A stretch of DNA of 64,000 bases from Amyloporia xantha (Eukaryota; Basidiomycota; Agaricomycetes; Polyporales; Adustoporiaceae): positions 99,175 to 163,174 of the forward strand of contig JAYKKR010000052.1 in NCBI GenBank assembly GCA_036971615.1, written 5' to 3'. Made by a program: the position numbers and the translations under genes. The notes beneath the pieces are model-generated. The model made no database searches. It was given only the letters and a program-made list of their open reading frames with translations, and was not told where the DNA came from. Below, piece by piece: positions 2,111 to 38,351 of the stretch. Numbering within the stretch: position 1 is the first letter of the stretch; each line of letters begins with the position of its first letter.

Positions 2111-2169
2111 AAGGTCATTACAAACAGGCTCTAATGGTATCTATATAGCAGGCTTACCATGAAATTTAT

Positions 2170-2880: not shown

Positions 2881-2894
2881 TACAAGGACATAGA

Positions 2895-4455: not shown

Positions 4456-5041
4456 GGAGTAACCTAGGCTGCTCTGAGATATATGAGGTTTTCCAGAGTA
4501 ACTCAGGCTATCTCAGAACATTTGAGGTTAACCTGAGTTGCTCTGAGTTGCTCTGAGTTGCTCTGAGATAATTCAAATTTCTCAGAGCATCCTAGGCTAG
4601 GTTCTGTTTCTTTGAGCAACCATAGACATTGAATGGTATGAAAAGAGTGTAGATAAGCAGAAAGTAGACAGAGAAGTGAAAACATGATATGTATACACTC
4701 ATTGCTGTGCTGCTTCAGTCATTCCCTCTCCTTATCTCATTTCTACTCCATTTATCCACCAGCTCCTCCTTCCACTGACAGCTAACAGTAAAAGGTCAGA
4801 GATCAGAGGGTCAGAGATAAAACAGGAGAAGATGCATCTCAGAATTGAGAATCTTGACTCTGGTCAAGGGAGACTGCAACTGGATAAATTAGTGAGTAAA
4901 GGAGTATTAGATAGTTGAATAATGTGATAGATCATTGCAGGAATAGATAGAGAAGGATACATATGAAGAATGGGAGAATGAGGAGGATGTCATTCAAAAT
5001 GCGACCATAGAATAGGCACGGCTGGATGCTGACCCCACAAT
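4456..5041. repeat. Outer long inverted repeat, left
   Basis: Reverse complement of 37,512-38,351 along most of its length. The right partner carries about 250 extra bases near 37,950-38,200. Both outer ends start near GGGTAACCTAGGCTGCTCTG (here GGAGTAACC, an imperfect terminus). They carry an array of CTCTGAG/CTCAGAG motifs, three in tandem as GAGTTGCTCTGAG around 4,535-4,575. No flanking target-site duplication could be recognised. The repeat is non-coding. Confidence 0.8.
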
Positions 5042-6060
5042 GTACTTGGTGGGAGCGGGCCAATAAATGGCAGGACAATTCCTGAGGATTTTGAAGTGCT
5101 GTCTTCCATTATTGCCCCATAAGTTTCAACTATATAAGATGTCTATAACAATTGGATCACTTGCCTCTGATTACTTTTCAGATATTGACTCTACAAACTA
5201 ATAGAGACAATCTGATGGCTGTGAAAACTAATCCCAATAAGTGTATCAATCTACTATAGTAGCTTTACAAGCACATGGCAACAGTTATAGAAACAGACTG
5301 CAAAGATATTACAAAAATTGAAACTAAATCTTGATACAAATGTATGTCAGTGAATATTGAGAATCTCAATACAAACATTACAACATTCCCCCATGAAGTA
5401 AGTGAGTTCTGTCTGATGGAGTGTAAAAGTGATTTTTGAGCCTAACCCATTAGAAACTCTTGTAGTGTCATTAGAATATTTACTTACAAAGTGAGCATCC
5501 TCTGTCAGATTAGCCTACTATCTATTTTTCACATTTTGTAATGATATTACAAACTCACTTTAATCAGGGTGCAAAGTCATCTTAAGCTTCTTTTCAACCA
5601 TACAAACTTGCTTTTGAGATCATACATATCCACTCTATCTGCAATGCAAACCTGCTCTGGCTATAACAATGCTATTTATCAACCAAATCTTGCAACAGCC
5701 ATATCTTAGTAAGTATTGAGAATTCCAATACAAACATTACAACTTTTCCTAATGAAGTAAATAGGTTCTATCTGATGGAATATAAAAGTGATTTTCCACA
5801 CTAACCACATACAAACCTTTCTAATGTCATTACAACATTTACTTATCAAGTCAATCTTGCCTTTCAATTGGGACCATTATGTATTTCACCCATTTTGTAA
5901 TGACATTACAAATTTGCTCTAATTAACATTTGATGGTCATATCAGACACCTTTGCATTCAAAGTCAGTGTAATGACCATACATATTTGCTCTAATGGCAC
6001 TACAACTCACTGGAATCACCACACAAACTCATCATACTAACCATACATACAACATCACTT
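5042..6060. repeat. Inner long inverted repeat, left
   Basis: It begins with ACTTGGTGGGAGCGGGCCA and is the reverse complement of 30,571-31,512 over most of its length. It directly abuts the outer inverted repeat. At its inner end it continues into 22-bp satellite, whereas the right copy closes with a second terminal motif. Confidence 0.8.
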
Positions 6061-6335
6061 AAATCACCATGCAACATGCTCTAACGACCCTACAAACTAA
6101 GTCTGATTATCATAAAAAGTCACTCAAATCACCACAGAAATGTATTGTATTGACCTCACAAACTTGCCCTAATCACCATACAAATCTACCCTAATGATCA
6201 TACAAACATACTTACTATACAATGTCGCTCTAACCACCTTCAAGTCACTGTAAACACAATAAAAGTCATTCTAAGGGTCATACAAACCTGCTGTAAATAC
6301 AGCACAAAGCTCTCTAAGGTCCTTACAAACAGGCT
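5990..6335. repeat. 22-bp degenerate satellite array, third block
   Basis: A shorter run, about 14 units, of the same degenerate 22-bp repeat. It carries segments identical to parts of 1,020-1,380 and 3,240-3,320, showing that arm copies exchange or duplicate blocks. Confidence 0.75.
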
Positions 6336-6384
6336 CTAATGATTTCTATATAGCAGGCTTACAATGAAATCTATAAAGCATAGA

Positions 6385-7245
6385 TAAAAGGCCTGTATTG
6401 GAGCGCGCTCTTGGGCACCTAACGAGCGCCTGATGTTCGCAAAGGCGATGATCATTGAATAGCATATTTGTTATGGCCTCAAATACTTAGGAAATTGAAT
6501 GAGAGATGGATACACTATAGTCCAAGGTCTGTACAAAGTTTCAGCCAATTAAATTAAGAATTGAAGCCACAGGAAAGTGCACTTTTTTCCATTTCCGGCA
6601 ATTCCCGGAGGGCGTCTAACCGCGTTGGTCGATCCTAGCCATTTCCTGTGGCAATCGACCAACGCGGTTAGATGCCCTTGGATCATGTGACCGCTTTTTC
6701 TGCTCTTTGCAGGCTCATTCTGGGCGCATTCTGGGCTCAAAAAAGGCGCAAAAATCACCTAAAATAAGGGAATGTCTTTCTGCTTCATTTGGAATCCCTA
6801 TCTCACATTTTTCACATCTCACATACAGCCATATTTCCGCATTTGGGCATGTTTGTATTGGCTCTACTGGCCAAGCAAAAATAGCAATAAATCCATGAAA
6901 ATCAAGACCAATATGGACGTCACTGTGGCTACCTGCTGATGTAAGCATTTTCTCATGACTCACTATCTGACAGATCTGCTCTTTCCCTCTGACAACCATC
7001 ACGTCAAGTGCAGGTGAACTTTACACTGCAAAAGTGAGTGGTGCCCTCTTCTGTGTACCTACTAATGAGCTAGGCAGAGGTGTGCCAAGAGAAAGCCAGG
7101 GCAAGGTGCACAAGTTGGGCCAAGTTGGTGTTGGTCGATCCCACAAGCTCTGTCATGGAGGGTGTCTAACTGCATTGGTCAATTGCCACAAGAAATGGCT
7201 GGGATTGACCAACGTGGTTAGACGCCCTTGGATCATGTGACCACT
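6385..7245. repeat. Hairpin modules 3 and 5, with swapped stems
   Basis: The flanks match the 1,420 and 2,170 modules, but the central hairpin differs. At 6,611-6,677 an 18-bp perfect stem (CTAACCGCGTTGGTCGAT / ATCGACCAACGCGGTTAG) replaces the GGGCGATCC stem. A diverged version with compensating changes lies at 7,161-7,227. Both are followed by GGATCATGTGACC. No coding content. Confidence 0.75.
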
Positions 7246-7399
7246 GCCCAGCTCACCGGCTCCTACATCACTGTATCCCAAGTAAGCAAGGATTCAATAC
7301 ATTATACTATCACTTGTATGCACTTTAATTGGGTGTACTAACCATATCTATCAATAGCAATCTATTTCCATTGAAATCTGTGACCAACAGGTAGTCGGC

Positions 7400-7956
7400 C
7401 CTATCTCAAAGACGGCCATATTTCTGCATTTGGGCAAGTGTATATGGGGTCTATATGCTATAAATAAATAGTAACAAATCTCAAAAAATGGGAGGCAGTC
7501 TGTCGACAGCCATGGCTACCCGCTGATGTAAGCATTTCCTTATATGGCAACTTTTGAATGTGCCCATTGCAACAGTATATACACTTCAAAGGCCAGCAAG
7601 TGGGGAGAGGCAATGCCACCAGGCTTTTTGGAGACCACGTGAACTGTTAGTGCTCGTGAACAGTGACCCAAGATAGACGGCCTACAGAGGTACATTTTAT
7701 GACCACCAGAGGCTGAGTCGCACTGGCCTCCAGGGAAGAAAAGTGATTGTAATTAGTGTATCTACAAAACGTTGCAAGGGATTTTTGATATTTTCTTTGG
7801 TTGCTGAGATTGACACTGTCTGAGGTAAAGATATACAGACATTTTGAGCACATCTTCGAAATGTTGAAATACATCAGGAAAAACCATATTAGTCCCAGGC
7901 TGCTCTGAGAGCGTCCAAGAGCATCCTAGAGACTTCAGAGTACTCTCAAGGTTACA
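7400..7956. other. Left-arm tail, no gene
   Basis: The stretch at 7,420-7,570 repeats 2,625-2,790. The remainder to about 7,956 shows only short ORFs without a recognisable domain. A degenerate patch near 7,890-7,960 resembles the outer terminal region, with GGCTGCTCTGAG and AAGGTTAC. Confidence 0.55.
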
Positions 7957-8240
7957 GTATTACGATTCCTGAGGTACGAAGGAAGCGTTTCTCTGGTGAG
8001 CAAAAGTCGCGACACCAACTTTTGCGCCCTAAGCGTGGGAACCCAATTCAATACAAAATTTGTATTGTAAGCGCCCAAGATCCTGGGGTTAGGGTCAGGC
8101 TTTTGTTAACGCTGTTGTAAGGTGGCTTGTAGTCTCAATACAAAAGTTTGTTACCCATTACAAAGTTCAATACAAAACTGCCAGCACGACGCGACTTGTA
8201 CAAACAACCCCCAACACTGATGAGATAAGATCGAGCCTAT
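7957..8240. repeat. Inverted repeat, right partner of 2,895-3,187
   Basis: Reverse complement of 2,895-3,187, starting ATTACGATTCCTGAGGTACG. It is followed by a short direct repeat of the CATATCTTATCAGTTACCC kind (8,235-8,315), just downstream of the RPA14 gene's stop codon. Confidence 0.8.
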
Positions 8241-8419
8241 ATCTTATCAGTTACCCTATATAGGCTAATCACGTGCACCCCATATCTTATCAGTTACCCT
8301 ATATAGATTAGTCACGTGCAGTTGTTAGATTATGTTGCTGCCGTTGTGTCTTATCTGTGTACCGAACTCAGTGCATTGCTGAACATCACCTCTCGTATTG
8401 ACTCGACTACGTTGTACTA

Positions 8420-8969
8420 TCACTGTTGGACCATCTTAGCAAAGCGAGGATCATGCCAAAGCTCGATAACGTCATTGGCAAGCTTCATGTCTGTGTTTAT
8501 TGTTAGCAGCAGACCAATGGAGTCCAAGGTGAGCTCACCAAAGTCATCGCCAAACTGGATGATCTGGGCACAATCCGCATGGAGCTTGGTGGGAGTCCTG
8601 ACTTTGCCAATGACCTCAACAAAAGTGTTTACCTTGAACTCGTTGATCTGTTGCATGTGAGCATTGACATATAACACGCAGATGTTACAATATACCTTGT
8701 CGAGCTTGGCAGTGTCCAAGTTCACGAGGACCACTTTGATCTGCACTTCATCGGAGGACTTGACCTCAAGATAATGCTCAGTGGGATAGACCTGGGTATG
8801 GGTGAGTCATTTTATGGATTTCAATCATATGATCATGACGTACAGCCAAGATCTGGCACCACAACCTTGTCACGTATCCGTCAAACTGACCAAACTTGTC
8901 CTGAAGAATCCGGCCATTGACCCGACCATGGGTACAGTCATACGTGGGATAGGGAGAAAGAGTGCTCAT
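8420..8969 (-). CDS. Replication protein A subunit 3 (RPA14) homolog carried by the element
   Basis: Four exons on the minus strand (8,969-8,844, 8,791-8,696, 8,647-8,539, 8,490-8,420) join in frame to 133 aa. All introns are GT-AG of 48-52 bp. The product resembles the smallest replication protein A subunit, an OB-fold that helps the RPA trimer coat single-stranded DNA in the nucleus. Visible family features are RVN near the N-terminus, then the FVEVIGKV strand, FGDDFD, and the C-terminal helix ending WHDPRFAKM, used in trimer packing. Length fits the family (about 110-135 aa). It lies between element repeats and the GC-rich array, not among host genes, so I infer capture by the element. A host paralogue that happened to be engulfed is the alternative. 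Function in replication of the element is inference. Confidence 0.75.
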
Positions 8970-9539
8970 GATGGATGAAGGAAGAGAGTGGATGTGGAGA
9001 ATGAAGCGGTGAAGGCTATTTTATATCTTGATCATATCACGATATGGAGAGAGCGCATGCCTCTGAATTTTCTTGTTCTTATCAATATAGACATCGCCAC
9101 AGGTGTTGAGATTGGGTATCGGCACCTATTATCTAATCACTAGTCGCAAAAGATCCAAGTTCTCCGACGTATGCAAAAGTGCAAGCTGCCGAATCGATAT
9201 AAATTTAATGTAAGCTCACTTTTGTGTTGCTTCGTCCTGGTATGGAGGCGTAGAGAGCGGTAGATGGTGGTGCTCATGACTGTCGAGAAGGAAGTCTATA
9301 CGGAGAGCTCCGAACCGAACCTCTCTTCCGATATCCAGATAAGGAAGCTATGACAAAGGTACTCCGACTGGCCCCAATCGCGGTACCGGAGTGAAAATAC
9401 CTTAATTAATGGACTATGATAATAGTATATACCTTGTAAATGGTAACGCATTCCGGGAAGAGGGGGAAGGATGTAATAGAACAAGTCAGCTATACCCGTG
9501 GAGGGCAGAGGTTGGGTGCCTGCGGCATCCCGTGGCGCT
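8970..9539. other. Upstream region of the RPA14-like gene
   Basis: No gene recognised. It holds the presumed promoter of the minus-strand RPA14-like gene and unique sequence leading into the GC-rich array. ORFs that enter from the array on either strand are not credible. Confidence 0.45.
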
Positions 9540-10672
9540 GGCAGCACCACCCGTAGGAAGTGAAGAGTACTCCCCAAACACATTGCTCTTGGCAACACGT
9601 TCCAGAGGGCGGGGATACAAGCAAGTGCGCCCACTGGCCAAGAGGACAGCGGGCGTGGAGCGGCGCCAGTAGCAGCGTCCGCAGAGGGCCATGAAACTCC
9701 CCCGAATTCGTTGCCGTGGGCAACGAGCTCTAGGGGCGGGGTGGAAAGCAAGTGCGCCCGCTGTCCGCTTGGACAGCGGGCGTCGAGCGGCGCTGGTAGC
9801 GGCATCCGCAGAGGGCCACGAAAGCCCCCCGAATTCCTTGCCGTGGGCAACGAGCTCGAGGGGCGGGGTGGAGCACAAGCGCGCCCGCTGTCCAAGAGGA
9901 CAGCGGGCATGGGGCGGCGCTGGCAGCACCTCCCGCGGGGAGCTAAGAGAGCTCCCCAAACGCGTTGCTCTTGGCAACGCATTCGGGGGGCGGGGTGGAC
10001 CGCAAGCGCGCCCGCTGTCCGCTTGGACAGCGGGCATGGGGCGGCGCTGGCAGCACCACCCGCGGGGAGCTAAGAGAGCTCCCCAAACGCGTTGCTCTTG
10101 GCAACGCGTTCGGGGGGCGGGGTGGACCGCAAGCGCGCCCGCTGTCCGCTTGGACAGCGGGCATGGGGCGGCGCTGGCAGCACCACCCGCGGGGAGCGAA
10201 GAGAGCTCCCCAAACGCGTTGCTCTTGGCAACGCGTTCGGGGGGCGGGGTGGAACGCAAGCGCGCCCGCTGTCCGCTTGGACAGCGGGCATGGGGCGGCG
10301 CTGGCAGCACCACCCGCGGGGAGCGAAGAGAGCTCCCAAACGCGTTGCTCTTGGCAACGCGTTCGGGGGGCGGGGTGGAACGCAAGCGCGCCCGCTGTCC
10401 GCTTGGACAGCGGGCATGGGGCGGCGCTGGCAGCACCACCCGCGGGGAGCTAAGAGAGCTCCCCAAACGCGTTGCTCTTGGCAACGCGTTCGGGGGGCGG
10501 GGTGGACCGCAAGCGCGCCCGCTGTCCGCTTGGACAGCGGGCATGGGGCGGCGCTGGTAGCGAAGCCCCCGACCCGTTGCCGTGGGCAACGAACTCGAGG
10601 GCGGGGTGGAGCGCAAGCGCGCCCGCTGTCCGCTTGGACAGCGGGCATGGGGCGGCGCTGGCAGCGCCGGCT
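9540..10672. repeat. Tandem array of 127-bp triple-hairpin units
   Basis: About nine units. The anchor GCTTGGACAG recurs at 10,021, 10,148, 10,275, 10,401, 10,528 and 10,632, giving periods of 127, 127, 126, 127 and 104. Each full unit has three perfect palindromic stems: GGGGAGCT/AGCTCCCC (loop AAGAG), AACGCGTTGC/GCAACGCGTT (loop TCTTG) and GCCCGCTGTCC/GGACAGCGGGC (loop GCTT, or AAGA in an early unit). GC content is far above the AT-rich surroundings. Long ORFs on both strands follow from repeat composition and are not genes. Confidence 0.9.
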
Positions 10673-11100
10673 GACCAGCGGGCACTGGGGCGGCGTGGCA
10701 TGTTCAGGGCAGCGCGGTCGAGGCGCGTTCGACGGCGCGGCGTTTGTCTTCTGCAGCAGCGGGGAACGGCGCGGCGCGGCGTGTGCAGTGCGGCGGGGTG
10801 TTTGCGCTGAGGAGCGGCGCGGCGTGTTTGCTGTCGACGGGGAGTGGCGCGGCGTTGGCGGGGAGCAGTGCAGCGGTGCACGCAGGGCTCTGTGCTTGAA
10901 AGAAAAAGTCAGTCAGAAAAGGAGGAGAAGATACTTACCTGCTCCCTTGCCTCTGCCTGTAACCCTTCTGCTACTTCTACTGCACACTCCAGTGGTCTTG
11001 TAGAAGGCTCACAGCCTTGTTGTTGTGGAAGCAGCAGGAGGAGGAGGAGCTCGAGGAGCAGGAGGACATGGAGGAGGAGGAGGAGGCACACTGAGCACCA
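10672..11100. repeat. GGCGCGGCG minisatellite and GAGGAGG tract
   Basis: Irregular repeats of GGCGCGGCGTG with spacers (10,690-10,890), then a GAGGAGGAGG purine tract at about 11,030-11,090. No credible coding sequence. Confidence 0.65.
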
Positions 11101-11104
11101 GGAA

Positions 11105-11400
11105 ACCGCGCGAGAACGGCGCGCGCTCGACGGGCGCCTAAAGGGCGCTCGTTTTGCGAAAGTCCGTATTCCATTAATAACGTTGGGAATATGGCCTCAA
11201 ATCACCCCAAATTTTTCAGGGGCATTCTAATGCATGATTAGAATGCCCGTGCAAAATTTGGTGCGATATAATTAACATTTGACCCTTCTGTAGGTCGCGC
11301 AAAACGCTTTCCGGCACTTTCCGGCGGGCGTCTAGGGCGCGTAGGGCGACGCACTGCAGCGGATCGCCCTACGCGGACTTAGCAGATTTTTCCTCTTGCC
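11105..11400. repeat. Diverged hairpin module, copy 4
   Basis: It resembles the 1,420-1,720 module: GGGCGCCTAAAGGGCGC, then ATGGCCTCAAATC, then TTCCGGC, then an imperfect hairpin AGGGCGACG / GGATCGCCCTACGCGG near 11,342-11,371. It lies about 260 bp upstream of the next gene, so it may be part of its promoter region. Confidence 0.65.
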
Positions 11401-11660
11401 TTTTGCCACATCCGCGCGCGCTCCTCCTCGCTTGCCTCCCTCGTGCCATCCATCCAATTTTACAGCATAAATGTGAGTATTCACATTCTATTATGCTTTA
11501 TATGTTGTTATAAACTCACCTAAGCCTGTTGAACAGCCTTTAAGCCCAGTAGAAGACCCTGCTACATCCAGACCTGGTTTTCGAACACAGACAGTGAGCA
11601 GGTCTTTTCTCCCTAGCTTATTGAGACCAAACTGACTTTTTCTTTGCCATATACCTAGCC

Positions 11661-14600
11661 ATGTCCCGATCTCCAAGCCCTGAGCAGCTCCAAAAGCTGC
11701 TAGGTGTTACCCTGGACATCCCTGAGCGTCCTACATCGATGGTGGAGATTAGGGAGGTTGTTGGTCATCCGTTGGGTCCTGATGATCCTAGAGGAAAGGC
11801 CTATCTGGTGATGATAGATTCAACCGAGGAAGGGATGGAGAGAATGCAAAGTCAGGCAAGTAGTCTTGAAGTGCACAGTGCAAATGCGAATGAGCTCAGG
11901 ACTATGGGTGAGTGATGACGTCTTTCCATGTGATCTGAGCGCTTACGCGCCCAAGGTTTCTTACATCTGAAACCTTACGATCGCTTGATTGGAAGGAAGA
12001 TTGGAAGCCCTTCGGATGGATCTGAAGATATCCTCCTTCTCTACATGGTTCCTCAGCGGTGTGTTTCTTATATCTTTTCTTTTTCTCTCTCCCATCTCAC
12101 ATGTTATTTAGTCTTCTTCCCTCCGACCTTGTTGCCAAGTTGTTAGCTATCCTTCTCAACTCATTGGTCCTGAGGACGAGTGTACCAGAACAAAGGCACA
12201 GCAGTGCGGTTCAGAGGATGAGTATCAGGGTGGGGTCTGGTGGGAGAGAAGTTCCTCTTCTGAATCTGTTGGACGTGATACTCGTGCCTATAATTTGGCC
12301 CAGTCTTATGAACGCGTGAGAAAGCTTATCGCTCCAGGAAGACTTTCCAAAGTTTACGAGGAAAGTTTGACTGAGCATGGCAAGTTGCGGAAGGAGCTGG
12401 TGGAGGCAAGTAATCATGTCCAGTATTAGTACAGACACTAACTGATTTATCAGGTTGGATCTCGCATCGCCATCAATGCTCTGGAGCGCGGAGACTCTGA
12501 CTTGGTCAATTTGCTCAAAGCTCAAGCTGAGCTCACTGCTAAGTTTCCAATTGGCTTTGAGGGCAATTACGCCTTCACCAATGTTCAGCTGAACATTGCT
12601 TCCACCAAAACCAAGCAACAGGCCCAGGCGCTAGGTAAGTAGTTGATTATCTGAATTTCTTTAATATCTATTGCATATGTTTGCTTCTTTCTGCTCTTTA
12701 TTTATTCTTCTTGCCCTCTATTCTTTTCAAATAAATTCCCACACCCACTGGGGGTGCTTCTTCTATATTTACATCCAATTCCTGATCTCCCCTTCCCATA
12801 TTTCCCTTTATTTATTTCGCTTTTTCCCTATTATTTCGATTTTATTTCCTCTTTCTGCTCTTTATTTATTCTTCTTGCCCTCTATTCTTTTCAAATAAAT
12901 TCCCACACCCACTGGGGGTGCTCCCTCCATCTTTCCATCCAATTTCTCTCCTCCCCTTCGCATTTTTGCCTCTATTTATTGCGCTTGTTTCACTTTTTCT
13001 GACAATTTCTTTTCTAGGTGCTTTGTTCAAGGCAGAACTGGGCCCTTTTGCTGGTATCCATGTGGATAGCTATGACAGTTGGGTTGCCATGTCTTGCATG
13101 ACTGTCTTCTCTCAACTGGACAAGAATGTTGATCCTGGTGTCTTCATCTTTCCTGCCTTTGGTGTGTTCATCTCCATGCCCTATCTGTATGATCCAGAGA
13201 ATCCACAAGAGGTTATGTCTGTCTGTTTCAATGGACTGTATCCTCATGGTGGAACTCCGCCCGTTGCGCTCACCAACACCACACCCAATAACACTTCCTA
13301 CCGCTTTACTCTCATCAACTATCCTAACGACAGCACTCTGGAGGGGCTGGCGCATGTTGGTTTTTGCAGTGGTGAGAATGGAGAATTGGAGGAGATTCCT
13401 CCTCATCTCAGTCTTCATGGGTGTGTACTCTATCTTCTTGATTTTATTTTTTCCTTAAGCTTCGACTTATCTTTTCTTCTAGTGTTTCTCATCCCAATGT
13501 TCCTATTGTCAATCATGGCAATATTCTCACTGATGGCATGGCTATGACCAATGCACAGGGTCTTTTGGACGCTGTTGCCAGAGGTTTTCATCTTGCTTTG
13601 TCCTCTCGCCTTGATCAAATTCCTGCTTGCTATCAGCCTACCGTCGACACTGATGCCTTCATGAACTGTATTACGTTCAAGAACGAGCAAGGTGAAGTTA
13701 TTCATCCTTCTGCCTGGAGCATGCCGCCTTCAGAGAAAGAGAAGCGTGCTGCTCAGGGTAAGCTCTGGAAGAAGATGCGTCTTCATCGTGGTGGTGCAAT
13801 TCCTCATGTGGTTCTTGGCAACTCCTATCAGCCATTCAAGAAGTATATGGAGAGTATTGGGGAGGCAGAGGAGGATGTGGACGATGTTCAGCGTGTGCGT
13901 GGTCGTATTCGTTGTAAGTTGTCTTTGCATTTTTTTTCTTTGCCTTTTGTTTTTATTTCTGACTCATTTTATTTAATTCCAGCCTCTCGTACCTACAGAC
14001 GTAAGTGTTTCTGCCACTATACATAATTTATTCTAACATGGTTTCACAATTTCCAGGCAACAACTCTGAGAAACAGAGGGGTCAGAAGCGTCAGCATGAA
14101 GAAGCTGAGGAAGAAGAAGAAGAAGAAGCAAATTTGCCTTCCATATTGAGAGCTAGTAAGCATCCTCTTTATTTCTTTTTGACTTGTCTAACTTGTTGCA
14201 CAGATACTAGCTTGGATAATATTGCCTCTGCCATGAGGTTGCGCTCTCAAGCACTGTTTGAGCAGATGCAGCAGCAGGCATCTGGCTCTGCTACACGCTC
14301 TAGCAAGCGCCTGAAAGCTGGTATGTCTAAGTAGATAGATAGATATGCACAAATTGATGTATGTGTTAGTTGGAGGCGTTTCGGATAATGCAGAAGAAGG
14401 CTTGCCCATGGACGCGCAGTCGGGTAATACTTTTGATGCTTTTGAGGAGTTTATGAGTGGTACGTCTTGCAGAATGTCACAGTTCCTTTACATTCTAATT
14501 TCTATATAGAACAGGAGTTTGAAGAAGACGAGAACGCGAGCACAGATGGAGGAAATTCTAAGTCTGAAGTGTTGTCACATGGTATGCATCTTTGCTATCT

Positions 14601-16945: not shown

Positions 16946-16947
16946 CT

Positions 16948-18487: not shown

Positions 18488-18515
18488 CCGCTCTCTATCA
18501 TTCTTCCTCTCCCAG
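18488..18515. promoter_or_regulatory. 28-bp gap between divergent start codons
   Basis: The minus-strand ATG (18,485-18,487) and plus-strand ATG (18,516) are separated by only 28 bases. Any bidirectional promoter must overlap the first exons. If transcription starts lie upstream of these codons, the two mRNAs overlap antisense. Confidence 0.4.
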
Positions 18516-21500: not shown

Positions 21501-21815
21501 GTACCCTACCAGGACGCATGTTCTTGAACCTTGGGACCACAGTAAGAAAGTTCTTGACTTGTATATGTATTATTACTGATGCTCCATAGTTCCTGTACGG
21601 GACTGCTCTGCATACTTCCAAGGCAAGCGCAGCAAGAATCTGAGTTCAACTTCAAAGACATTGCGACCAAATGTCCAGTCTTTGAAGGTGAGATTCCAGA
21701 GGCATCGCTTGTCGGTGTGTTGCATACGGTTGGAAAGTTCAACAAGGGTTCAGGCGACACACTTTCCACCAATATCATGGCTGTTATGTTACTTGCCCGT
21801 ACTAGCAATGATTGA
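18516..21815 (+). CDS. Unknown element protein with basic RGRG/acidic N-terminus, many micro-exons
   Basis: It begins MAPRARARGRGTSNRGTPGR, with intron 1 splitting an RGRGRGRGRK run. Exons then are often 18-50 nt (for example about 18,771-18,785, 18,839-18,854 and 18,911-18,928). They encode a disordered Ser/Asp/Lys-rich stretch like nuclear chromatin proteins, with SKTPRKRLK as a likely nuclear signal. From about 20,640 a folded domain begins (AVELVSDVMPILLSLALDIF, then FVPREAGGKYVKDILIHPL, then SLVGVLHTVGKFNKGSGDTL) and ends at a TGA at 21,813. A 210-bp in-frame tandem duplication lies inside it. Near 21,600-21,650 the frame changes by one base without an obvious intron, so this copy may be damaged at its end, or the splicing differs. 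Family not recognised; an ssDNA-binding role next to a Rep gene is speculation. Confidence 0.55.
20758..21177 (+). repeat. 210-bp tandem duplication within a coding exon
   Basis: Copies at 20,758-20,967 and 20,968-21,177 are almost identical; one difference seen is CAGTGACATTG against CAGCGACATTG. The unit is 70 codons, so the frame is kept. The repeated unit includes the last 30 or so bases of the preceding intron with its acceptor AG, but no donor. Confidence 0.9.
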
Positions 21816-22074
21816 TGTCAGCTGTGTCTCTCATGTATCTTGCGTACTTCTGCTTATTCAATGACATGTTCAATTCAATTGCGTATATTCAACTTGCACC
21901 AGAATAATAGAAAGAGTCTTTGATTTGATTTTGAGGGCGGTTATGGGTCATGTCATGTGATCTGAACCTTGTCACATGACTGTGATCTGATCATGTGACT
22001 TTGGGAATGGTGATGACGTGGCAAATGCTTTCTGTTCCACATCTCTCACTCGACCATTGCTTCTACCATACATC

Positions 22075-25545: not shown

Positions 25546-25556
25546 AGACGCACACC

Positions 25557-29228: not shown

Positions 29229-29956
29229 CAAATATCTCCAGTCAAAATGCCATGCTCACCAGATTCACTCAGACATTCCAGAAGGTGGATACACACATGT
29301 TGTCCATGGAAGAGGCCAGAGATGAACTCCGAGCTGAGCTTCACAAACTTGACTCAGAGGCATTTCCAGTTGAAGGAAAGGAGGGCACTGATATATACAA
29401 GCTGTGTGCAACCATGCTTGCCATTCCAGAGGATTATGTGACCAAGACTCTGATCTGCAATCACTGCCACACTGAGCTTGAGGGTGACACAGACAATCCT
29501 GTGCTCTGGGACTGTACAAAGCCATTATGGAAGGAGTGTGCATTTAAGCTAGGATCTTCCAAGAACCGCAAAATATCAGAGTGGCTACATGCCCTGTGTA
29601 TGCGCAAGACTCAACACAAGTGCCCCAGATGTCCAAAGAAGCTCAAGATGCAGTACACCATCTCTGAAGCACCCAACTTTATGGTGTTTGTCACAAATGG
29701 TCTCCAGATAGACTTTGATTCCATATTCCACATAGGACAGGGTGAAAGTCAATACAGGCTGTGTGGCATCATATACTTTGGACAATTCCACTTTACTGCA
29801 CGTGCAGTTATGCCAGATGGGCAGATATGGTTCAATGATGGCATAAGTACAGGTACCAAGTCAACCTTGGAGTCAAACATGAAGATTGTGGATTCTGGTA
29901 CTCTCCAAAAGATTCAAGGGCGACACAGCTCTGTGGCTATTTACATTAAGATCTGA
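29081..29956 (+). CDS. USP-like cysteine protease domain of the Helitron protein, third frame
   Basis: Open from 29,081, with no local start needed if it is joined to the helicase. The Cys box GGSYSCAYDSLFFILY (Cys codon 29,162-29,164) and His box FHFTARAVMPDGQIWFNDG (His 29,789-29,791, Asp near 29,836) match the layout of ubiquitin-specific proteases (peptidase C19). Between them are two CxxC pairs (CNHC, CPRC), like the zinc ribbon of USP fingers. Fungal Helitron proteins often carry protease domains; whether this one removes ubiquitin or cuts the Helitron polyprotein cannot be told. It needs a one-base shift from the helicase frame near AGATAAAAAGTCC (29,083-29,095). An intron is possible but no GT-AG pair fits cleanly. 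Confidence 0.75.
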   Translation, partial: PDKKSKASDILEKSGPPGFKWDGGSYSCAYDSLFFILYTVYRQSHDHWIANISSQNAMLTRFTQTFQKVDTHMLSMEEARDELRAELHKLDSEAFPVEGKEGTDIYKLCATMLAIPEDYVTKTLICNHCHTELEGDTDNPVLWDCTKPLWKECAFKLGSSKNRKISEWLHALCMRKTQHKCPRCPKKLKMQYTISEAPNFMVFVTNGLQIDFDSIFHIGQGESQYRLCGIIYFGQFHFTARAVMPDGQIWFNDGISTGTKSTLESNMKIVDSGTLQKIQGRHSSVAIYIKI

Positions 29957-30189
29957 TTTGGAATATTGTGTGATGAGAGTATATAATATACCTTTTGATT
30001 AGTAATGTGCTGTATATATCAATAAAAGAGGAGGGAAGGACTGATGAAAGGCAGGACCCAGGACTTCAAAGAAGACACCTGTAGCAAGTCTTCGCCTTGG
30101 CCTCTTGGTTGCAATCGTGGGAGATGTGGCCCTCAAGGCAACCTGATTGAAATAATGTAAGTCCCAGCATCTTACAATTTTCACTCACT

Positions 30190-30446
30190 TACAGTTATAG
30201 CTACATGAGATGTTGGGATGTAAACATGGGATGGTAGGTGTAGGCGAAGCACTTACCATGTAGGTGTGCCCGTCTTAGGGCAGCTGGCCGCCTGGTGTCC
30301 ACGATTATAGCTACATGAGATATTGGGATGTAAACATGGGGTGGTAGGTGTAGGGGAATGTAAACATGGGGTGGTAGGTGTAGGCGAAGCACTTACCATG
30401 TAGGTGTGCCAGTCTTAGGGCAGCTGGCCGCCTGGTGGCCAACTAA
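30190..30446. repeat. Direct repeats downstream of the Helitron genes
   Basis: Two copies of a segment of about 105 bp: TATAGCTACATGAGATRTTGG, then TAAACATGGGRTGGTAGGTG, then CTTAGGGCAGCTGGCCGCC. They start at about 30,196 and 30,305, with an extra partial copy between. Each ends in a short hairpin (GGCC GCCTGGT GGCC in the last copy), followed by AACTAAAC. A hairpin before CTAA recalls a Helitron 3' end (CTRR), but the base that follows is A rather than T, so the terminus is unproven. Confidence 0.7.
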
Positions 30447-30570
30447 ACATTGAATGTAAGTAAGATCATACCATGATCAGAAAATGAAAATGAAGACATC
30501 AATGGAGTGTATGCAATCAGAATGAATGAGGAAATCGTGAAGGAGTGCGACTTACAGCCTCAACCGTTCA

Positions 30571-31512
30571 AACTTGGTGGGAGCGGGCCAGTAAGGTGAC
30601 TGATATGGCTTTGAAATGTTAATTAGAGCAAATTTGTAATGTCATTACAAAATGGGTGAAATACATAATGGTCCCATTTGAAAGGCAAGATTGACTTGAT
30701 AAGTAAATGTTGTAATGACATTAGAAAGGTTTGTATGTGGTTAGTGTGGAAAATCACTTTTATATTCCATCAGATAGAACCTACTTACTTCATTAGGAAA
30801 AGTTGTAATGTTTGTATTGGAATTCTCAATACTTACTGAGATATGGCTGTTGTAAGATTTGGTTGATAAATAGCATTGTTATAGCCTGAGCAGGTTTGCA
30901 TTGCAGTTAAAGTGAATATGTATGATCTCAAAAGCAGGTTTGTATGGTCAAGAGCAAGCTGATGTAATCATGAGGATGACTTCATACTCTCATTAGAGTG
31001 AGTTTGTAATGTCATTACAAAATGTGAAAAATACATAGTAGGCTCATTTGATAGAGAATGTTCACTTTGTAAGTAAATGTTGTAATGATACTACAAGAGT
31101 TTCTAATGGGTTAGGGTCAAAATCACTTTTACACTCCATCAGACAGAACTCACTTACTTCATTAGGAAATGTTGTAATGTTTGTATTGAGATTGTCAATA
31201 TTCACTGACATACACCTGTATCAAGATCCAGTTTCAATTTTTGTAATATCTTTGCAGTCTGTTTCTATGACTGTTGCCATGTGCTTGCAAAGTTAATATA
31301 GTAGATTGCTACACTTATTGGGATTAGTTTTCACAGCCATCAGATTGTCTCTATAAGTTTGTAGAGTCAATATCTGAAGAATAATCAGAGGCAAGTCATC
31401 CAATTGTAATGAAAATCTTACATTACTAAACCTTGTCAGGCTATAATAGAAGACAGCACTTCAAAATCCTCAGGAATCGTCCTGCCATTTATTGGCCCGC
31501 TCCCACCAAGTT
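30571..31512. mobile_element. Inner inverted repeat, right; also a closed 942-bp MITE-like unit
   Basis: Both ends carry the same 20-bp terminal sequence inverted: AACTTGGTGGGAGCGGGCCA at 30,571-30,590 and its reverse complement at 31,493-31,512. The interior is the reverse complement of 5,042-6,060 and of 1-560. It therefore serves as the right partner of the inner pair and could also be a non-autonomous derivative. No coding sequence; flanking bases show no clear target duplication. Confidence 0.8.
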
Positions 31513-33172
31513 ATAATAGAATATAGCAGTATATTCACAAATATATACACACTAAAGATAATCCAATACTAGTAGCCATAATAATTACGTCCAATGTGAT
31601 AGCTCAAGACAGAAATCTCCACATCACCAAACTAATGTTATTATTCAGTATACAGTAATATAAAACACAAAGCTGAAAGACGTACACAAGATCAATGAAG
31701 ATATTTTGTTGTGTGGCCAAAATATACGAGAATCTAATAGAAGAATTCAGGTAATGTCCAATTAGTTGAAGGAGCAAGACAAGGTACTTACATAAGTAGT
31801 ATTTTCACAGTAAACTGAAGCCGAATAGCATGGGCAATAACACTCTAAGAATCAACAAAGCGATCAACAAAGGAATTGAGATAGAAGTGAACAACTTACC
31901 TGACATCGTCACAATCAGAATCAGTTTTGATCATGTTGCACAAGTCTGTAGATACAATAATTTAGAACAGCTAAGAAATGAGAAGCAAATGAATGACTTA
32001 CATGTTAGGAGTCTCATCAAAATTCAAAATTATAGATGACGACTCACCATCCTTTACAAGTCTTACAAAAGCATGAACTCATGCATAAAGCATGTCATAT
32101 CTATTGAATGCAATGGAGATGTCAGCCTGAAAGGGAATTATGGACATACTTACATCAGGAAAAGTCTCCCTTACTTATTAGAGCTCATTGAATACTTACC
32201 ATTCTTATCCAACTTATATGTCTCTTATTCTACTCATCTGATTCTTATTGACTGCTAATCTATCTCACACATCTCTAATTCCACTCATCAGATTCTTACT
32301 GAATGCTCATCTATCTTATATTTCTCTAATCCTACTCATCAGATTCTTATTGAGTGCTAATTTGTCTCAAGATGCTAATCAAACTCTCAGAAAGTTGTTA
32401 TGAGATCTTCCAATTGCTCACTTACTTCAGCTGTGTTGTGCTAGTAACTAGTATGGACTAGATATGTAGAATGAGCACCATAATAAACAAGCCTTTATAT
32501 TCATAGACTTATATTGTACTCCTTGAACAAGGTCACAAAGATACACCTTAAGAAATTATTCTTTTTTTGTCTCAATCTGAGAAAGAAAATACTGCAACAA
32601 GTACTTGCATTTGATAGAGAGCCTTCTGTTTATCCAGAAAAATGAAGTGGAGATATAATTGCATCAAAGGTCTGTGGAGGAGTATAGCAGCAGCCAAGCA
32701 ACAAAAAGGAGAATAGAAAGAAGATATGGACTTACCTGTGCCCACAATTCCTAACGACCCATATGCTCTGCCAGCACATCATCATACTTGAGGCAGTACC
32801 AGACAGAGAGACGGCCACAGACTAGAAGTTACCAGATATAGCCCAGAGATGAGAAGAACAATGAATGAGTAAACAGAAACCAAGCAGGGAAGTGAAGTGA
32901 CATGGAAGAAGACGAAGCAGGGTGGGTGTTGAGGAAGAAGAGAATGAACGACCATGAGTGCCTAATTTGGGTGTCAGTTTGTCGCGTCAAACTGACACCT
33001 GTTTTGAAACCCCATATTAGGGTCAGCAGGGACTTAGATGCATTTGCACTTCTCCTCAGCCATTCCTTCTTGCTGCTACCTTTCTGTATGTATGCTATCT
33101 GCTGTCTTGGCTCTCACAAACTGTTGACTAGGGACTGGAGCTCACTATCTATGGCTTCTGGGCATCTTTATT
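31513..33172. other. AT-rich stretch with a short tandem repeat and a palindrome
   Basis: No gene recognised. Three 51-bp tandem units (CTCATCTGATTCTTATTGA type, anchors at 32,241, 32,292 and 32,343) lie at about 32,225-32,375. A palindrome GGTGTCAGTTTG / CAAACTGACACC with loop TCGCGT sits near 32,968-32,998. The stretch separates the inner right repeat from the Harbinger element. Confidence 0.55.
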
Positions 33173-33534
33173 AGACACTTTTCGCAACGGCCTTAGCGCC
33201 CAAGATTGATGGAAGATCAGCCGCCCCACTCTAGCCACTAGGTATGTGGCCGATTTCGCCGAGGAATACTCAGACTCCACGCAAGTGGCGACTACTACCA
33301 TTTTTGTGCCCACCCAACGCTTGCAACTTGAGCCCGACCATCTCGACCAACGCGAGCTCAGTCATACGGCTATAGGTCTATGTGGTGTGACGAAGACATC
33401 ACACGTCACGACGCGACGCGACGCGGTTTGTTGAATGCAAATCAACAAAGTGGAGCCCAACCAGAGACTCTATAAAGCCTTCTCGCTGTCTTTTTCGCAC
33501 TGCCAGAGAAGTATCTTTCCCGACTCTGTTCACA

Positions 33535-34920
33535 TGGCTTTCCAGTTTCGAGACTTGAATTGTTCTTCTCCTAACTCTCACGGCACAGATGAGAGTTATC
33601 GCAAGGCTGGTGCTTACGGCCCTGCTCCTAGGAGCACGTACGGCTCCAATCAACATGGCCACTGCCCTTTGGCCAACAACACGGGTGTGCCATCAACGTA
33701 TCTTTCCATAGCCTGCCACTAATGGTTTGTCAGTGTCCTATTGGCACATACCGTCTTATTCTTATGCTTCCCCAATGGCTGCGCGGTCTCCTCCTGGTCC
33801 GTCACTTGCATTTGCTCGTGCTAGCCTGAGCACGTCTACCACCTCTCTCATTCCTGTCTCCAATTCTCCCCATGTCTTGGGTCTTGTCACGGAGAACTCT
33901 TCTGCTCAACAAGTCAACAAAGGTTATGTGTCTGATGGCACAAATACCATGGATGACGAGAGTGGCAGTGACATCACAAGCAATGGAGAACTTGAAGATG
34001 AGGACCAGGAAGTCAGAAGTACAGTAGGTTCTGGATCTAATGGTGATGTTCCGAATGTGCGTGTCCCACGGAAGCATGGCGGTGGGCATGATTAAACCAG
34101 CCGTGAGCTGTGCGAGCTTGCAGCTGCTTGTGCAGACATCAACCCGTGGGCGGCCAGGCGTGGGGACGTAGCAAAGACATGGAAGCGTGTCAAGGACTCG
34201 CTTGTTGCTGCGCATGTTTGCGAACAGCGGTCCATTGATTCTATACGTAAGAAGATGGATCAGCTAATCGAATATCATAAGGTTTGGTCCTATGTCATTC
34301 ATAACATCCATCGACTCACCAATCAGTCTTGACCATAGCATCCTACCTCCTCTGTCGGTGAGAGCATTGCCGAGATACTATCTGAGACAGACAAGATTGT
34401 GGTCGGAGCTTTACTCGACCGTGCATCAGGCCATCAGATGATGGCAGCTCAGCAGTCGGATGATCAGAAAGCAAAGGCTCAAGCAGTGAGTGTAAATTTA
34501 CATACCCTGTGCTTGTATCTTACGTGAAGTACTACCTAGAAAGCAGAGATGGACAAAGCTGCTGGTGAAGCCATCCGTCAGGCGTCAATGCAGGTCTCCC
34601 GCCGGCGTTTGCACAACAACGGCGATGGCAATGGCAATGACGACGACAATGATAGCAAGAAGGAGAACCGGCCTCCGAAGCCATACAAACGCCACCGTAT
34701 GACCCATGACTCGTCGATGTCATTGTCAAGTGGTTCCAGTAGTGACCAGATGGACAAGTTCTTGCAAGGTTATGTTGAGGAGCAGTGCAAGCAGAATGCT
34801 GATCTACTTTCAACCATGAAGGAGTCCACTCGTGCACAGACGGAAGCTATAACGGCGATGACGGTGATGTATAACCAGGTTGCGGGGAAGCTGGTTGATG
34901 TCCTTACAAAATTGAACTGA
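33535..34920 (+). pseudogene. Myb/SANT-like DNA-binding protein of the Harbinger element, interrupted
   Basis: Harbinger elements use this second protein to bring the transposase to the ends. Recognisable parts are a Ser/Pro-rich N-terminus, then the SANT-like stretch RELCELAAACADINPWAARR and KTWKRVKDSLVAAHV. An acidic/basic linker (DDDNDSKKENRPPKPYKR) and a Gln/Glu coiled C-terminal helix (VEEQCKQNADLLSTMKESTR) follow, with TGA at 34,918-34,920. An in-frame TAA at 34,093-34,095 falls exactly at the start of the SANT helix, where homologous proteins have an aromatic residue. Introns lie near 34,279-34,340 and 34,484-34,543; the first intron (about 33,672-33,735) does not close in phase. I judge it broken. 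Confidence 0.65.
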
Positions 34921-35063
34921 TCTTGGAACCGCATTCATTATATGCTTTTCTATGCTTTTCTATGATTACTATGCAGACATAAGCTATGGAATATATCTTA
35001 TGAATTATGCTCTAGTTGTCTACATTGCTGGAGCTACTCACCTGAAAATAAGGCCCACCGAGA

Positions 35064-36311
35064 TTAAGCATGGGGAGAAAAGTACTCCTGCATACTGGGT
35101 GGCTGGCAGTCAAAAAATTGTGCGAGTTGGTTCGGCTCACAACAATTATGTGCATTGGTGAATAATACACCAACGCGGTAGTAACGCCCGATGGGTGAAG
35201 CCCAAATCCTATGCCTCCAGAAGTGATTCAGATAAGGCCACTTGTTGACGACATTTCCGAATCCATGTTCAACCTCGATTCGAAGGGCAGCCATCTGCGC
35301 ATTCCACTCCTCCTCCTCTGCTGTACATCTCCCTGCACCTGCAAATGGGCTCAACAGTGTTCGGGTGACACCATATGCAGGATCGCCAAACAATTGGAAA
35401 TAACGGCGGCTCTCCCTTCCATTATCATCCTGTTCTGTCACGAACATGTGTTCTTCGCATTTGCGGAGTAGACCCGTTTCGTTCAACAGGAAACAATCAT
35501 AATTACGACCAGGGAATAGCTGCGAGAGGTGTGCAATTGTCCCATTTGGGATTGAGACCGCTTGATACTTGAGTGCGTGTTCTTTCTTGTGGCCGTTGTA
35601 CGCAGCACGCTGGTACCTTCCTGGACGACAGATGCAACGGATGGTACAGTCAATGAATCCCCATATGGAATCCAAGGGAGCACTGCGGGCGTGAATTGCG
35701 TCGGCGTAAACTTGGAGCTTGTTGGTATGTAGAAGGCCCTCGACATCAAAGTCAAGCAGATGACCCCACTTGTCATCTATAAATTCCACTATCTCATTCA
35801 CAACAGCGGAGATAGTGGCTGAACAGCGATTGTATTGTAAACACAACTGATATATCTCATGCCCAGTCCGGAAACGAGCCAGTGTAAGGCATAGAGCTTC
35901 TATGGCGGTGAAGCGATCATGCCGGGACGTGATGAATGGATCAGGAACACCAAGAACAGTACGGAGTTCAAGCAAATCCTTGGATGTAAAACTAGGTTCA
36001 CTTTGAGTGATCTGAGTCTCCCTGACTTGCCGTTACTGGATTACTCACCGAAACCGCCACCGGCACTCCCGATCTGTTAGACCCAGCAACCATTCCTCCG
36101 TAATTCTCTGACCACCCTGCTCCGGTCTCGCCTCCATTTCACTTGCTTTTCGCTTCCGTTTCTTGGTGCGAGCGCATTGTACAGAGGTCACTGTCGTGCC
36201 AGTTCTGGATTGGTGGAAGGTGGCTGCCGCAATTCCAGAAGTATGGTCTTGGAAGTGCAGTGGGGGAATGAGTATCAGGGCTAGGCCCCCTAGTAGCTGT
36301 TTCAGGTTCAT
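35064..36311 (-). CDS. Harbinger DDE transposase
   Basis: Two exons (36,311-36,049 and 36,000-35,064, 48-bp GT-AG intron) give 399 aa in frame. The protein is a DDE_Tnp_4 nuclease that cuts and pastes the element. The catalytic acids are visible: FIDCTIRCICRP (first Asp), FGDPAYG (second Asp) and EVEHGFGNV (Glu), in the usual order and spacing. Upstream is the helical region RFTAIEALCLTLARFRTG seen across the family. An earlier basic stretch (KKRKRKAS) may be a nuclear signal. No stop or frameshift was seen, so the transposase may be functional although its Myb partner is not. Confidence 0.9.
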
Positions 36312-36493
36312 ACGACGATATGCGTACAGGGACTCAAGAAGATGGTGTAGCACAGATCAGACGCCGCGATCTCAGTCCTCGTCGATGTCTGCACATTCGA
36401 GCGGAGTTTGAAAGTGGGGCAGGAGCTCCTTGTCGATCAACCGCCCCACTTGAGCTGCGAGTTGAGCTTCCAAAAGGGTTGCGAAAAGTGTCT

Positions 36494-37511
36494 ATTCACT
36501 GGAACTTGAGTGATCACAGATGGTTGCTGTCACGAGTTGACATCGAGCGTTTCTTCCTTTCTATATACGGACGATTTTCTCCTTTTACTCATCATTATTT
36601 TCCCCTCTTATTCGAACGGCCATTCTACTATACACGAACACAGCGAGCTCCCTGTTCATAGACTTAGACGTGTCGACCATTACAGGTCACATGTCCCTTT
36701 CCCATGGACTCCGTCCCGCCTTCCCTTTATGGATGTTTACTTAAGCATGGTGCCGGCCGACCTCGGGCCCCGCCGGGCTCCACTCACGACATCACTTATG
36801 ACTCATAGCCTGCTTACTCAGGCTGCGCACAGACCACCTGCGCACGGACCATGTAGATAGCCTGCCCTGAACTCTTGCAGTATATAAGATAGCACGCCTC
36901 TGCCTGGGGACTTCAGTTTCGACCTCTTGTCCCTAGGTAAGCCAAGCCCCGCTTGTACTTACTTCCTCGTGCTTACGTTCTATTTAACTTGTCCCTAGCC
37001 TCTGATTCGAGCTTTGCTCATCGTCGCTTCGATAAGATCAGAGTCGAACGCCCTCAGCCCTTGTTAGGTTTGTCTGTCCTCTGTCGCTCGACTCATAGTT
37101 GTGACAGTTGCACTGTCTCTGCTCTGCACTATCTGGGAATTTCTGTGAGTATTCCTTCTCTATTTCTTATTCCCTTTCCTTTGGGAATAGTACCAGGACT
37201 GTCTAAGCTTGCTGGGTGGAGTTTGGAAGGAGATTTGGAGGGGTTGGAGGGTTGGACATGGAATGGGCGCTTTTTTGAGGTTTTGATCAGAGGATAACTG
37301 GGGATCCATTATGAGTTATCCTTTCGCTTTTATACCATTCTATTTGCATTGTCAAGCCCTTCCAGACGAGCCCTTGCTCATCCAAATCTGTCCATTCCTT
37401 CGTCTTCTATTGCTGTTTTTCATCAAAACCTTTGTCTTGTCCATATCTCAGGAACCCATGGACAGTTTTCTTTGATTTTTGAATAGAATGAAAGCCCTAA
37501 TCACAGGCTTT
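36494..37511. other. Unique sequence between Harbinger and the outer repeat
   Basis: No gene recognised. A TATA-like GCAGTATATAAGATAGC at about 36,877-36,893, in a CT-rich context running to about 37,100, recalls a solo LTR. No matching ends or target duplication could be shown, so it is left unassigned. Confidence 0.4.
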
Positions 37512-38351
37512 CAGACGATATATACGTTGTTGGGTCCGCATCCAGCAGTTTCCATTCTATGGTCACATTTTGAATGACATCCTCCTCATTCTCCCATTCT
37601 TCATATGTATCCTTCTCTATCTATTCCTGCACTGATCTACCACATTATCCAACTATCTAATACTCCTTTACTCACTAATCTATCCAGTTTCAGTCTATTT
37701 CCGTGACCAGAGTCAAGATTCTCAATTCTGAGATGTGTCTTCTCCTGTTTTATCTCTGACCCTCTGATCTCTGACTTTTGACTGTTAGCTGTCAGTGGAA
37801 AGAGGAGCTAGTGGATAGATGGAGTAGAAATGAGATAAGGAGAGGGGAATGACTGAAGCAGCACAGTAATCAGTATACACATCATGTTTTCACTTCTCCA
37901 TCTACTTTCTGCTTATCTACACTCTTTTCATACCATTCAATGTCTATATCATTCTTTTTTCTCTCTCTACTAGATCCCTGCTATCCAACAGCTCTGTGTT
38001 TGTTCTGTGTGAGTGTGCATTTCTCATAATCAATGTCTCCATTATCATTTGTATGACAGATCCCCTTCACATACTATATTTAAGTAAATCATCTTAATAA
38101 AGCATAGAAAGTGAAGAGAATGAAAGTAAATAGTAGAACAACATAGCTGTTGTATATTATTCAGAAATAATGTGTTGTAGATTTATAAATATGCTTGAGT
38201 TGCTCAAAGAAACAGAAGCTAGCCTAGGATGCTCTGAGAAATTTGAATTATCTCAGAGCAACTCAGAGCAACTCAGGTTAACCTCAAATGCTCTGAGATA
38301 GTCTGAGTTACTCTGGGAAACCTCATATATCTCAGAGCAGCCTAGGTTACC
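37512..38351. repeat. Outer long inverted repeat, right
   Basis: Reverse complement of 4,456-5,041 plus about 250 bases (37,950-38,200) missing on the left. It ends with a CTCAGAGCAACTCAGAGCAAC array and the terminus CAGCCTAGGTTACCCC at 38,351. Sequence beyond this point is single-copy, so 38,351 is a good candidate for the outer edge of the mobile region. Confidence 0.8.

Follow-up and report, generated by a model that had tools for sequence, protein, structure and literature searches.

A probable giant Helitron2-type rolling-circle transposon with ends confined to one cluster per contig in Amyloporia xantha

Results

Ends, insertion site and copies of the element

We analysed a 64,000-nt stretch of the Amyloporia xantha genome (hereafter the window), which is the right end of contig C48 in an assembly of 46.8 Mb in 60 contigs; coordinates are those of the whole window unless a contig is named. 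Positions 7960–31511 very probably constitute a giant Helitron2-type rolling-circle transposon, whose ends are confined to one cluster per contig and for which the long inverted repeats around it are incidental. The element and its terminal features are as follows:

7960..31511, plus strand: giant Helitron2-type element, 23,552 bp, with ends TTACGATTCCTGAGG... and ...CCACCAAGT; the TT target leaves the true ends uncertain by 1–2 T
7962..7974, plus strand: 5′ subterminal inverted repeat ACGATTCCTGAGG, predicted 5′ hairpin (copy alignment)
31468..31480, plus strand: 3′ subterminal inverted repeat CCTCAGGAATCGT, overlapping the 3′ hairpin CAGGA-ATCG-TCCTG (copy alignment)

Aligned copies begin with TTACGATTCCTGAGG and finish with CCTCAGGAATCGT...CCAAGT, and their 13-bp subterminal inverted repeats are perfect. 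The hairpins predicted at the 5′ and 3′ ends have modest fold scores (z −2.48, with 4 of 200 shuffles folding equally well, and z −1.73, with 8 of 200, respectively). At the insertion site the window reads ACAGTA[TTACG...AAGT]TATAATAG, and two other copies of the interrupted sequence, a PlavakaB-like transposon, read ACAGTATTATAATAG at C60 and C5. The insertion was thus into TT without target duplication, as seen from one insertion and two empty-site copies. A previous sequence-only reading had proposed that the gene block and two nested pairs of long inverted repeats form one composite element, and had suggested comparing occupied with empty sites; both of these sites are empty for the Helitron alone, which tells against that proposal.

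A genome-wide search for the ends, allowing up to 2 mismatches, found 84 5′ ends and 88 3′ ends (172 in total), and a reversed-pattern control gave 0 matches. All 172 ends fell within one interval of 28.7–141.1 kb per contig on 17 contigs, together 1.22 Mb (2.6% of the genome). The summed span of the 84 5′ ends was 1.10 Mb, compared with at least 11.1 Mb in each of 1,000 random placements. When nearest same-strand 5′ and 3′ ends 22.0–25.9 kb apart were taken as full-length copies (leaving out a 21.3-kb pairing on C58 and a 19.7-kb pairing on C34), ten such copies were obtained, the window copy included, and end pairing also gave 49 derivatives of 2.7–3.75 kb. Over long aligned segments, the window copy is 95.7–99.9% identical to the copies at C48:62679-86480 and C34:174516-197649. 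The Rep gene and the core and last exons of the 12-exon gene described below are present in 10/10 full-length copies, and the RPA14-like gene in 9/10 (missing at C58). No relatives were confirmed in viral and prokaryote contig collections.

Copies also nest in one another. At C13:408392-408425, the end of a plus-strand giant copy meets the start of the 3′ region of a minus-strand copy, tail to tail, and similarly abutting 3′ regions occur at C51, C58, C40 and C8.

Origin of the surrounding inverted repeats

Both nested pairs of inverted repeats exist as previously described and are far beyond chance. The inner pair joins 5044–5952 with 31511–30593 (91.3% identity, 921 columns), and the outer pair joins 4622–5044 with 37947–37523 (92.3%) and 4459–4620 with 38350–38199 (91.4%). 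The inner-arm sequence is not merely a pair: a third copy occupies window positions 1–566 (97.9%), and the ~919-bp unit at 30593–31511 was found as a separate piece at many other places in the genome (best 40 of 148 candidates). In every copy inspected, this unit terminates in ...CCCGCTCCCACCAAGT, and nearly all copies differ in their downstream flank. An exception is a pair of 3′ ends to the left of the window (C48:88248 and C48:98822), which are oppositely oriented and have their outer flank (CAATGGATGGTG...) in common; an inverted duplication, or two insertions in copies of one repeat, could give this arrangement. The features that make up the arms and their surroundings are as follows:

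30593..31511, plus strand: 3′-terminal ~919 bp common to the giant element and its non-autonomous relatives; previously taken as the right inner arm
5044..7600, minus strand: inverted non-autonomous relative with its 3′ end at 5044 and its first ~373 bp lost; previously taken as the left inner arm
1..3181, minus strand: second inverted non-autonomous relative, 3,534 bp in total, with its 3′ end at C48:98822 left of the window and 22-bp central tandem repeats
4432..5044, minus strand: fragment of another, inverted PlavakaB-like copy; left outer arm
7872..7959, plus strand: left PlavakaB-like piece, site of the Helitron insertion, start CATCAGGAAAAACC
31512..38353, plus strand: right PlavakaB-like piece with three insertions inside, holding the right outer arm; a final match of ~40 bp at 38758–38798
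32156..32708, no strand assigned: ~558-bp dispersed short repeat within the right PlavakaB-like piece
33173..36492, no strand assigned: ~3.3-kb insert, for which the genome search gave no second copy, carrying a DDE_Tnp_4 transposase at 35067–36032 (minus strand)
36528..37102, no strand assigned: ~579-bp short repeat with a 9-bp overlap of the flanking alignment

By sequence comparison, the inner repeat is the Helitron's own 3′ 919 bp facing an inverted non-autonomous relative, and the outer arms are pieces of two opposed PlavakaB-like transposon copies. The long inverted repeats are chance neighbours or remains of other mobile DNA rather than the ends of one element, and we rejected them as element ends given the empty sites and their separate occurrence. 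The claim of a giant element that encodes replication proteins of its own nevertheless holds, with Helitron2-type ends at 7960 and 31511 instead of at the nested repeats. The earlier alternative, a Helitron and extra genes sitting amid independent repeats, is nearly what we found, the difference being that these additional genes are enclosed by the ends of the Helitron itself.

The outer transposon is 2.8 kb long with CATCA...TGATG ends and recurs by itself elsewhere in the genome. The intact copies (C60 and C5) can be aligned with positions 7872–7942, 7935–7962, 31511–32155, 32710–33172 and 37103–38353 of the window. The C60 copy carries AT on both flanks (read by eye), and these AT/AT flanks as target duplication, together with the termini, agree with PlavakaB, whose target duplications are of 2–3 bp. 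No transposase of its own was identified in this element of about 2.8 kb, which is non-autonomous. In the window, the Helitron and three additional inserts break up the copy of this transposon; for the repeat at 36528–37102, the 9-bp overlap suggests a 9-bp target duplication. The DDE_Tnp_4 transposase between the arms had been overlooked in the sequence-only reading, as had the splitting of the Rep–helicase protein of the window copy over three frames.

Two other origins were rejected. A subtelomeric origin is at odds with the lack of a TTAGGG pair in the window and with the location of the clusters internally in contigs. A second haplotype of the flank is likewise not supported, as window positions 42000–54000 showed no other long match, only pieces of ~190 bp or shorter.

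Proteins encoded by the element

The Rep–helicase protein (RepHel) and the RPA14-like protein are encoded at the following positions:

21991..25545, plus strand: RepHel frame segment 1, DUF6570 and HUH Rep domain
25467..29228, plus strand: RepHel frame segment 2, PIF1-type helicase
29078..29956, plus strand: RepHel frame segment 3, USP-like protease region (putative)
8423..8806, minus strand: RPA14-like (Rep_fac-A_3) reading frame, 128 aa, near the element's 5′ end (PF08661)

Pfam searches identified Helitron_like_N (E 2e-34), DUF6570 (E 6.5e-40) and PIF1 (E 2.1e-22) in RepHel. The protein is broken into three frames in the window copy, and two other copies keep it in one uninterrupted frame, of 2,655 aa in one and 2,657 aa in the other. 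The copy at C48:62679-86480 has the HLH motif, YxxxYxxK and PIF1, that is, an HUH Rep with two tyrosines fused to a PIF1-type SF1 helicase. Consistently, H200, H202, Y394, Y398, K401, C1611, H1820 and D1836 are invariant in 15 aligned RepHel sequences, and four zinc-type cysteines, also invariant across these, accompany the C-terminal Cys/His/Asp set. The best 120 of 1,124 listed relatives are mostly 2.4–2.8 kaa long and 38–50% identical, with a top identity of 50% over 100%, and nearly all have the same Pfam set; judged by the size and Pfam set of these relatives, RepHel is a widespread type.

The C-terminal region is a putative USP-like protease, a designation resting on the invariant Cys, His and Asp pattern. 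Pfam UCH matched this region in 1/7 sequences (E 0.049), and a PDB sequence search with it returned no relative. The gene content given in the sequence-only reading was borne out for the Rep, the helicase and the RPA14-like gene, and for the protease at the level of a residue pattern. The RPA14-like frame matched PF08661 with E 2.8e-7 and 31.3 bits (cut-off 23.5), and no PDB chain matched the protein. Among 19 PF08661 matches in the genome, 17 lie inside the clusters, 16 of them stop-free; the remaining two rows (C55:1.076 Mb) are presumably a host gene.

The cargo downstream of the RPA14-like gene contains a long spliced gene and two tandem repeats:

11661..16490, plus strand: predicted gene of 12 exons and 11 introns, 1,291 aa; splice sites chosen by hand, model from sequence alone
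13018..13420: exon 5 of this gene, with H-x-D at 13059–13067, H at 13245–13247 and R at 13302–13304
9534..10666, plus strand: GC-rich ~127-bp tandem repeat inside the element
20758..21177, plus strand: 210-bp exact tandem duplication (70 codons), a single unit in the copies C48:62679-86480, C34:174516 and C34:265514

Ten introns of the predicted gene are GT-AG and one is GC-AG; ten measure 48–88 nt and one 383. Three unrecognised genes had been reported in this block; they are at least partly this one gene, its 12 exons being joined in frame over 11661–16490, and the reading frames of the stretch at 16.5–21.9 kb gave no credible Pfam match. The spacing of HxD, H and R in exon 5 is what we take to be that of 2OG-Fe(II) dioxygenases. 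A homologue on C5, 73% alike, keeps the H, D, H and R, and dN/dS of the core exon is 0.14 over 133 codons. A protein search with the last exon gave one 99% match, on a 2,320-bp contig, among the matches listed. We conclude that the product is a conserved protein and, from its motif, a likely though unproven dioxygenase.

The Helitron copy at C5:430001-440000 combines a cargo-gene exon ~73% like that of the window with a flanking stretch, equivalent to 20.5–24.0 kb, that is 96–99.7% identical. This hybrid suggests recombination or template switching.

Composition and content of the clusters

Other mobile sequences served as a comparison for the confinement of the ends. The outer transposon was listed from the best 40 of 115 candidates, which gave 38 places, many only 78–80% alike; the window's own copy, a second piece at C12:2498770, short second pieces and two tiny reverse matches were excluded. 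Four of these 38 listed places lie strictly inside the clusters and 6 within 20 kb. Matches to Helitron Rep are divided, with 21/45 inside and 24/45 outside, where some of the 45 rows are pieces of one gene and C23:1807664, inside a cluster, belongs to another family by score. A Copia element of ≥90% identity occurs in the same clusters on 8/9 contigs, with one C18 piece 4–7 kb outside, and more distant Copia relatives are dispersed.

The clusters are depleted in CpG. On C48, the CpG observed/expected (o/e) ratio in 5-kb bins from 25 to 135 kb is 0.23–0.82 in 21/22 bins and 1.00 in one, compared with 0.89–1.04 in the outer bins (1–25 and 140–163 kb) and 0.73 at 135–140 kb. Within the element, the ratio is 0.08 at the 3′ end, 0.13–0.36 in RepHel and the protease region and 0.49 in the 12-exon gene; flanking genes have 0.95. 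This loss of CpG suggests cytosine methylation of the element. RepHel frames remain open in other copies despite the ratio of 0.13–0.36 in the window copy, which suggests that the element has long been exposed to methylation-driven mutation while selection kept the RepHel protein. In Agaricus bisporus, one methylated repeat cluster per chromosome is taken as the centromere in the available account (PMC7473861), and by analogy the clusters described here resemble these putative centromeres.

Discussion

One challenge to the identification of the element is the proposal of a new composite class, in which the nested inverted repeats serve as functional ends and the whole 34 kb (4456–38351) moves as a unit. 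Both repeat pairs are real and enclose replication genes. However, the outer repeat recurs alone, the Helitron alone has empty sites, and the left outer arm belongs to a different PlavakaB-like copy. Moreover, the gene block with ends of the type at 7960 and 31511 is found at nine other places, and none of these nine full-length copies has a listed outer-transposon place within 11 kb of its ends (38 places in an incomplete list). We therefore give this proposal next to no credence; the element is of a known rolling-circle kind and the repeats recur separately. A canonical Helitron1 (AT target, 5′-TC and CTRR-3′) whose ends are unusual and whose passengers are captured host genes is somewhat easier to entertain and still improbable. 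A RepHel with Helitron_like_N and PIF1, together with gene cargo, is a general Helitron feature, and the classification here rests on ends and target. Yet the target is TT rather than AT, and the ends are TTACG and CCAAGT rather than 5′-TC and CTRR-3′; these ends, the asymmetric, subterminal inverted repeats (13 bp, perfect) and the TT target fit Helitron2 and Helentrons as far as these are described in the accessible text (PMC4067079, PMC5148889). Full-length copies have the cargo in common, and the core exon in it is under constraint. TT insertion is shared with Helentrons in particular. Pfam scans found no endonuclease family corresponding to the Helentron AP endonuclease, and a tyrosine-recombinase captain of the Starship kind was not seen in those reading frames of the region covered by a scan that was not exhaustive.

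For the nature of the clusters and the role of the cargo, the alternatives weigh more heavily. The clusters could be ordinary gene-poor heterochromatin into which the element inserts at random, copies elsewhere having been purged, and we consider this a strong contender, if short of an even chance. Clusters rich in transposable elements (TEs) and depleted in CpG would tolerate insertions, and the near co-confinement of Copia is as expected of passive accumulation. On the other hand, none of the 172 ends is off-cluster even though identity between copies reaches 99.9%, which makes them young, while 24/45 Rep matches and 34 of the 38 places listed for the outer transposon are outside the clusters. 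Young, near-identical copies with none elsewhere suggest targeted insertion. For the cargo, there is a comparable probability, again short of even, that the HxD..H..R protein is an unrelated orphan with chance motifs and no dioxygenase. Pfam, PDB and protein-database searches lend a dioxygenase no support, the fold prediction is uninformative, and the Agaricus type described by Kojima has HxE rather than HxD in the available text (PMC12730594). Against the orphan, the C5 homologue retains all four residues inside a strongly constrained exon, and fungal Helitrons, including Helitron2 of Agaricus bisporus, are reported there to carry TET/JBP genes (PMC12730594).

Tentatively, and with more doubt than confidence, we propose that this 22–26-kb Helitron2 integrates almost only into regional centromeres, brings with it an RPA14-like subunit, a ubiquitin protease-like domain and a TET/JBP-like demethylating enzyme with which to operate in methylated chromatin, and makes up, together with its short derivatives, a large part of the clusters. 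In the transposition mechanism envisaged for the element, whatever its target, the HUH Rep would nick and rejoin one strand while the PIF1-type helicase peels that strand off. The RPA14-like protein and the USP-like protease may assist replication or protein stability, the former possibly by supplying or remodelling the single-strand-binding complex. The HxD..H..R protein would be a TET/JBP-like dioxygenase countering the cytosine methylation suggested by CpG loss. If the clusters are regional centromeres, the element would insert there by preference, nesting with its 2.7–3.75-kb derivatives.

Several observations weigh against our reading of the element or parts of it. An empty site was obtained for 1/7 insertions tested, the other six having none in the sequence examined, and only two of the examined copies keep RepHel unbroken. 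Comparison of RPA14 between copies showed no constraint (pN about equal to pS). In the 12-exon gene, the last exon is split in several copies and the C5 homologue has stops further on. The HxD protein has neither a Pfam nor a PDB match, a protein search with exons 1–6 gave no relative among the matches listed, and AlphaFold on the core exon gave a pLDDT of 36, too low to establish a fold. The same Copia also occurs off-cluster on C34, as an inverted pair at C34:2293388-2300617, which may reflect either a misjoin or an additional repeat cluster on that contig. Finally, 13 chromosomes are reported for Agaricus bisporus and Ganoderma leucocontextum in the literature as available, versus 17 clusters here; the first 150 bases of contig starts showed telomere repeats in 0/60, which prevents a chromosome count here.

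The centromere-confined mushroom elements in the literature consulted, as far as it was accessible, are retrotransposons. With near-identical copies confined to one cluster per contig, a Helitron2 of this kind would open to experiment the way in which such an element locates centromeric chromatin, and the question whether it in turn shapes centromeres. The additional genes point to a toolkit, supplied by the element itself, for single-strand replication and escape from DNA methylation. At 22–26 kb, it exceeds the roughly 14 kb given as the upper size of fungal Helitrons in the available text of a 2019 review (PMC6431247).

The element is like the FoHeli Helitron2 of Fusarium oxysporum in its asymmetric, subterminal inverted repeats, predicted hairpins near the ends, lack of target duplication, RepHel and non-autonomous relatives, and differs in being 22–26 kb and cluster-confined where FoHeli is 5–11 kb with a different target; the accessible description of FoHeli makes no mention of RPA14, a USP-like protease or a dioxygenase-like gene (PMC5148889). 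With Helentrons and HINE/DINE-1, according to the part of the source available, it shares subterminal inverted repeats, a 3′ stem-loop (here predicted), a TT target, central repeats in non-autonomous forms and extra protease and RPA genes, whereas Helentrons have an AP endonuclease, an RPA70-like RPA and an OTU-like protease where we found an RPA14-like gene, a putative USP-like protease region and no endonuclease (PMC4067079). Like the TET/JBP Helitrons, including Helitron2 of Agaricus bisporus, it is a Helitron2 with a putative 2OG dioxygenase gene; the PE type there has HxE where we see HxD, the likeness being one of description, and the available text is silent on RPA14, protease and centromere confinement (PMC12730594). 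The outer transposon has its counterpart in PlavakaB of the same source, with CATCA..TGATG termini and AT on both sides of the C60 copy (PMC12730594).

HELPO Helitrons of Pleurotus ostreatus are likewise from an Agaricomycete and carry additional genes; unlike the present element, they are described in the accessible text with an AT target, TC/CTRR ends, a length of ≤13.7 kb and a RepHel without RPA or cysteine protease (PMC4289320). The clusters themselves are like those of Agaricus bisporus, where each chromosome has one methylated TE cluster of 110–280 kb with cluster-exclusive elements including a Copia; in the available account, Copia-28, HaTad and unknown repeats are the cluster-exclusive elements present in all clusters, and those exclusive to some could include a Helitron (PMC7473861). 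Our literature search, judged by titles and abstract openings and with subscription journals little covered, returned no centromere-confined mushroom Helitron. Precedents thus exist, in the parts of the sources available, for Helitron2, for Helitrons with a TET gene and for Helentrons with a protease or RPA (PMC5148889, PMC12730594, PMC4067079), and what is new here is a giant, cluster-confined and possibly centromere-targeting Helitron2.

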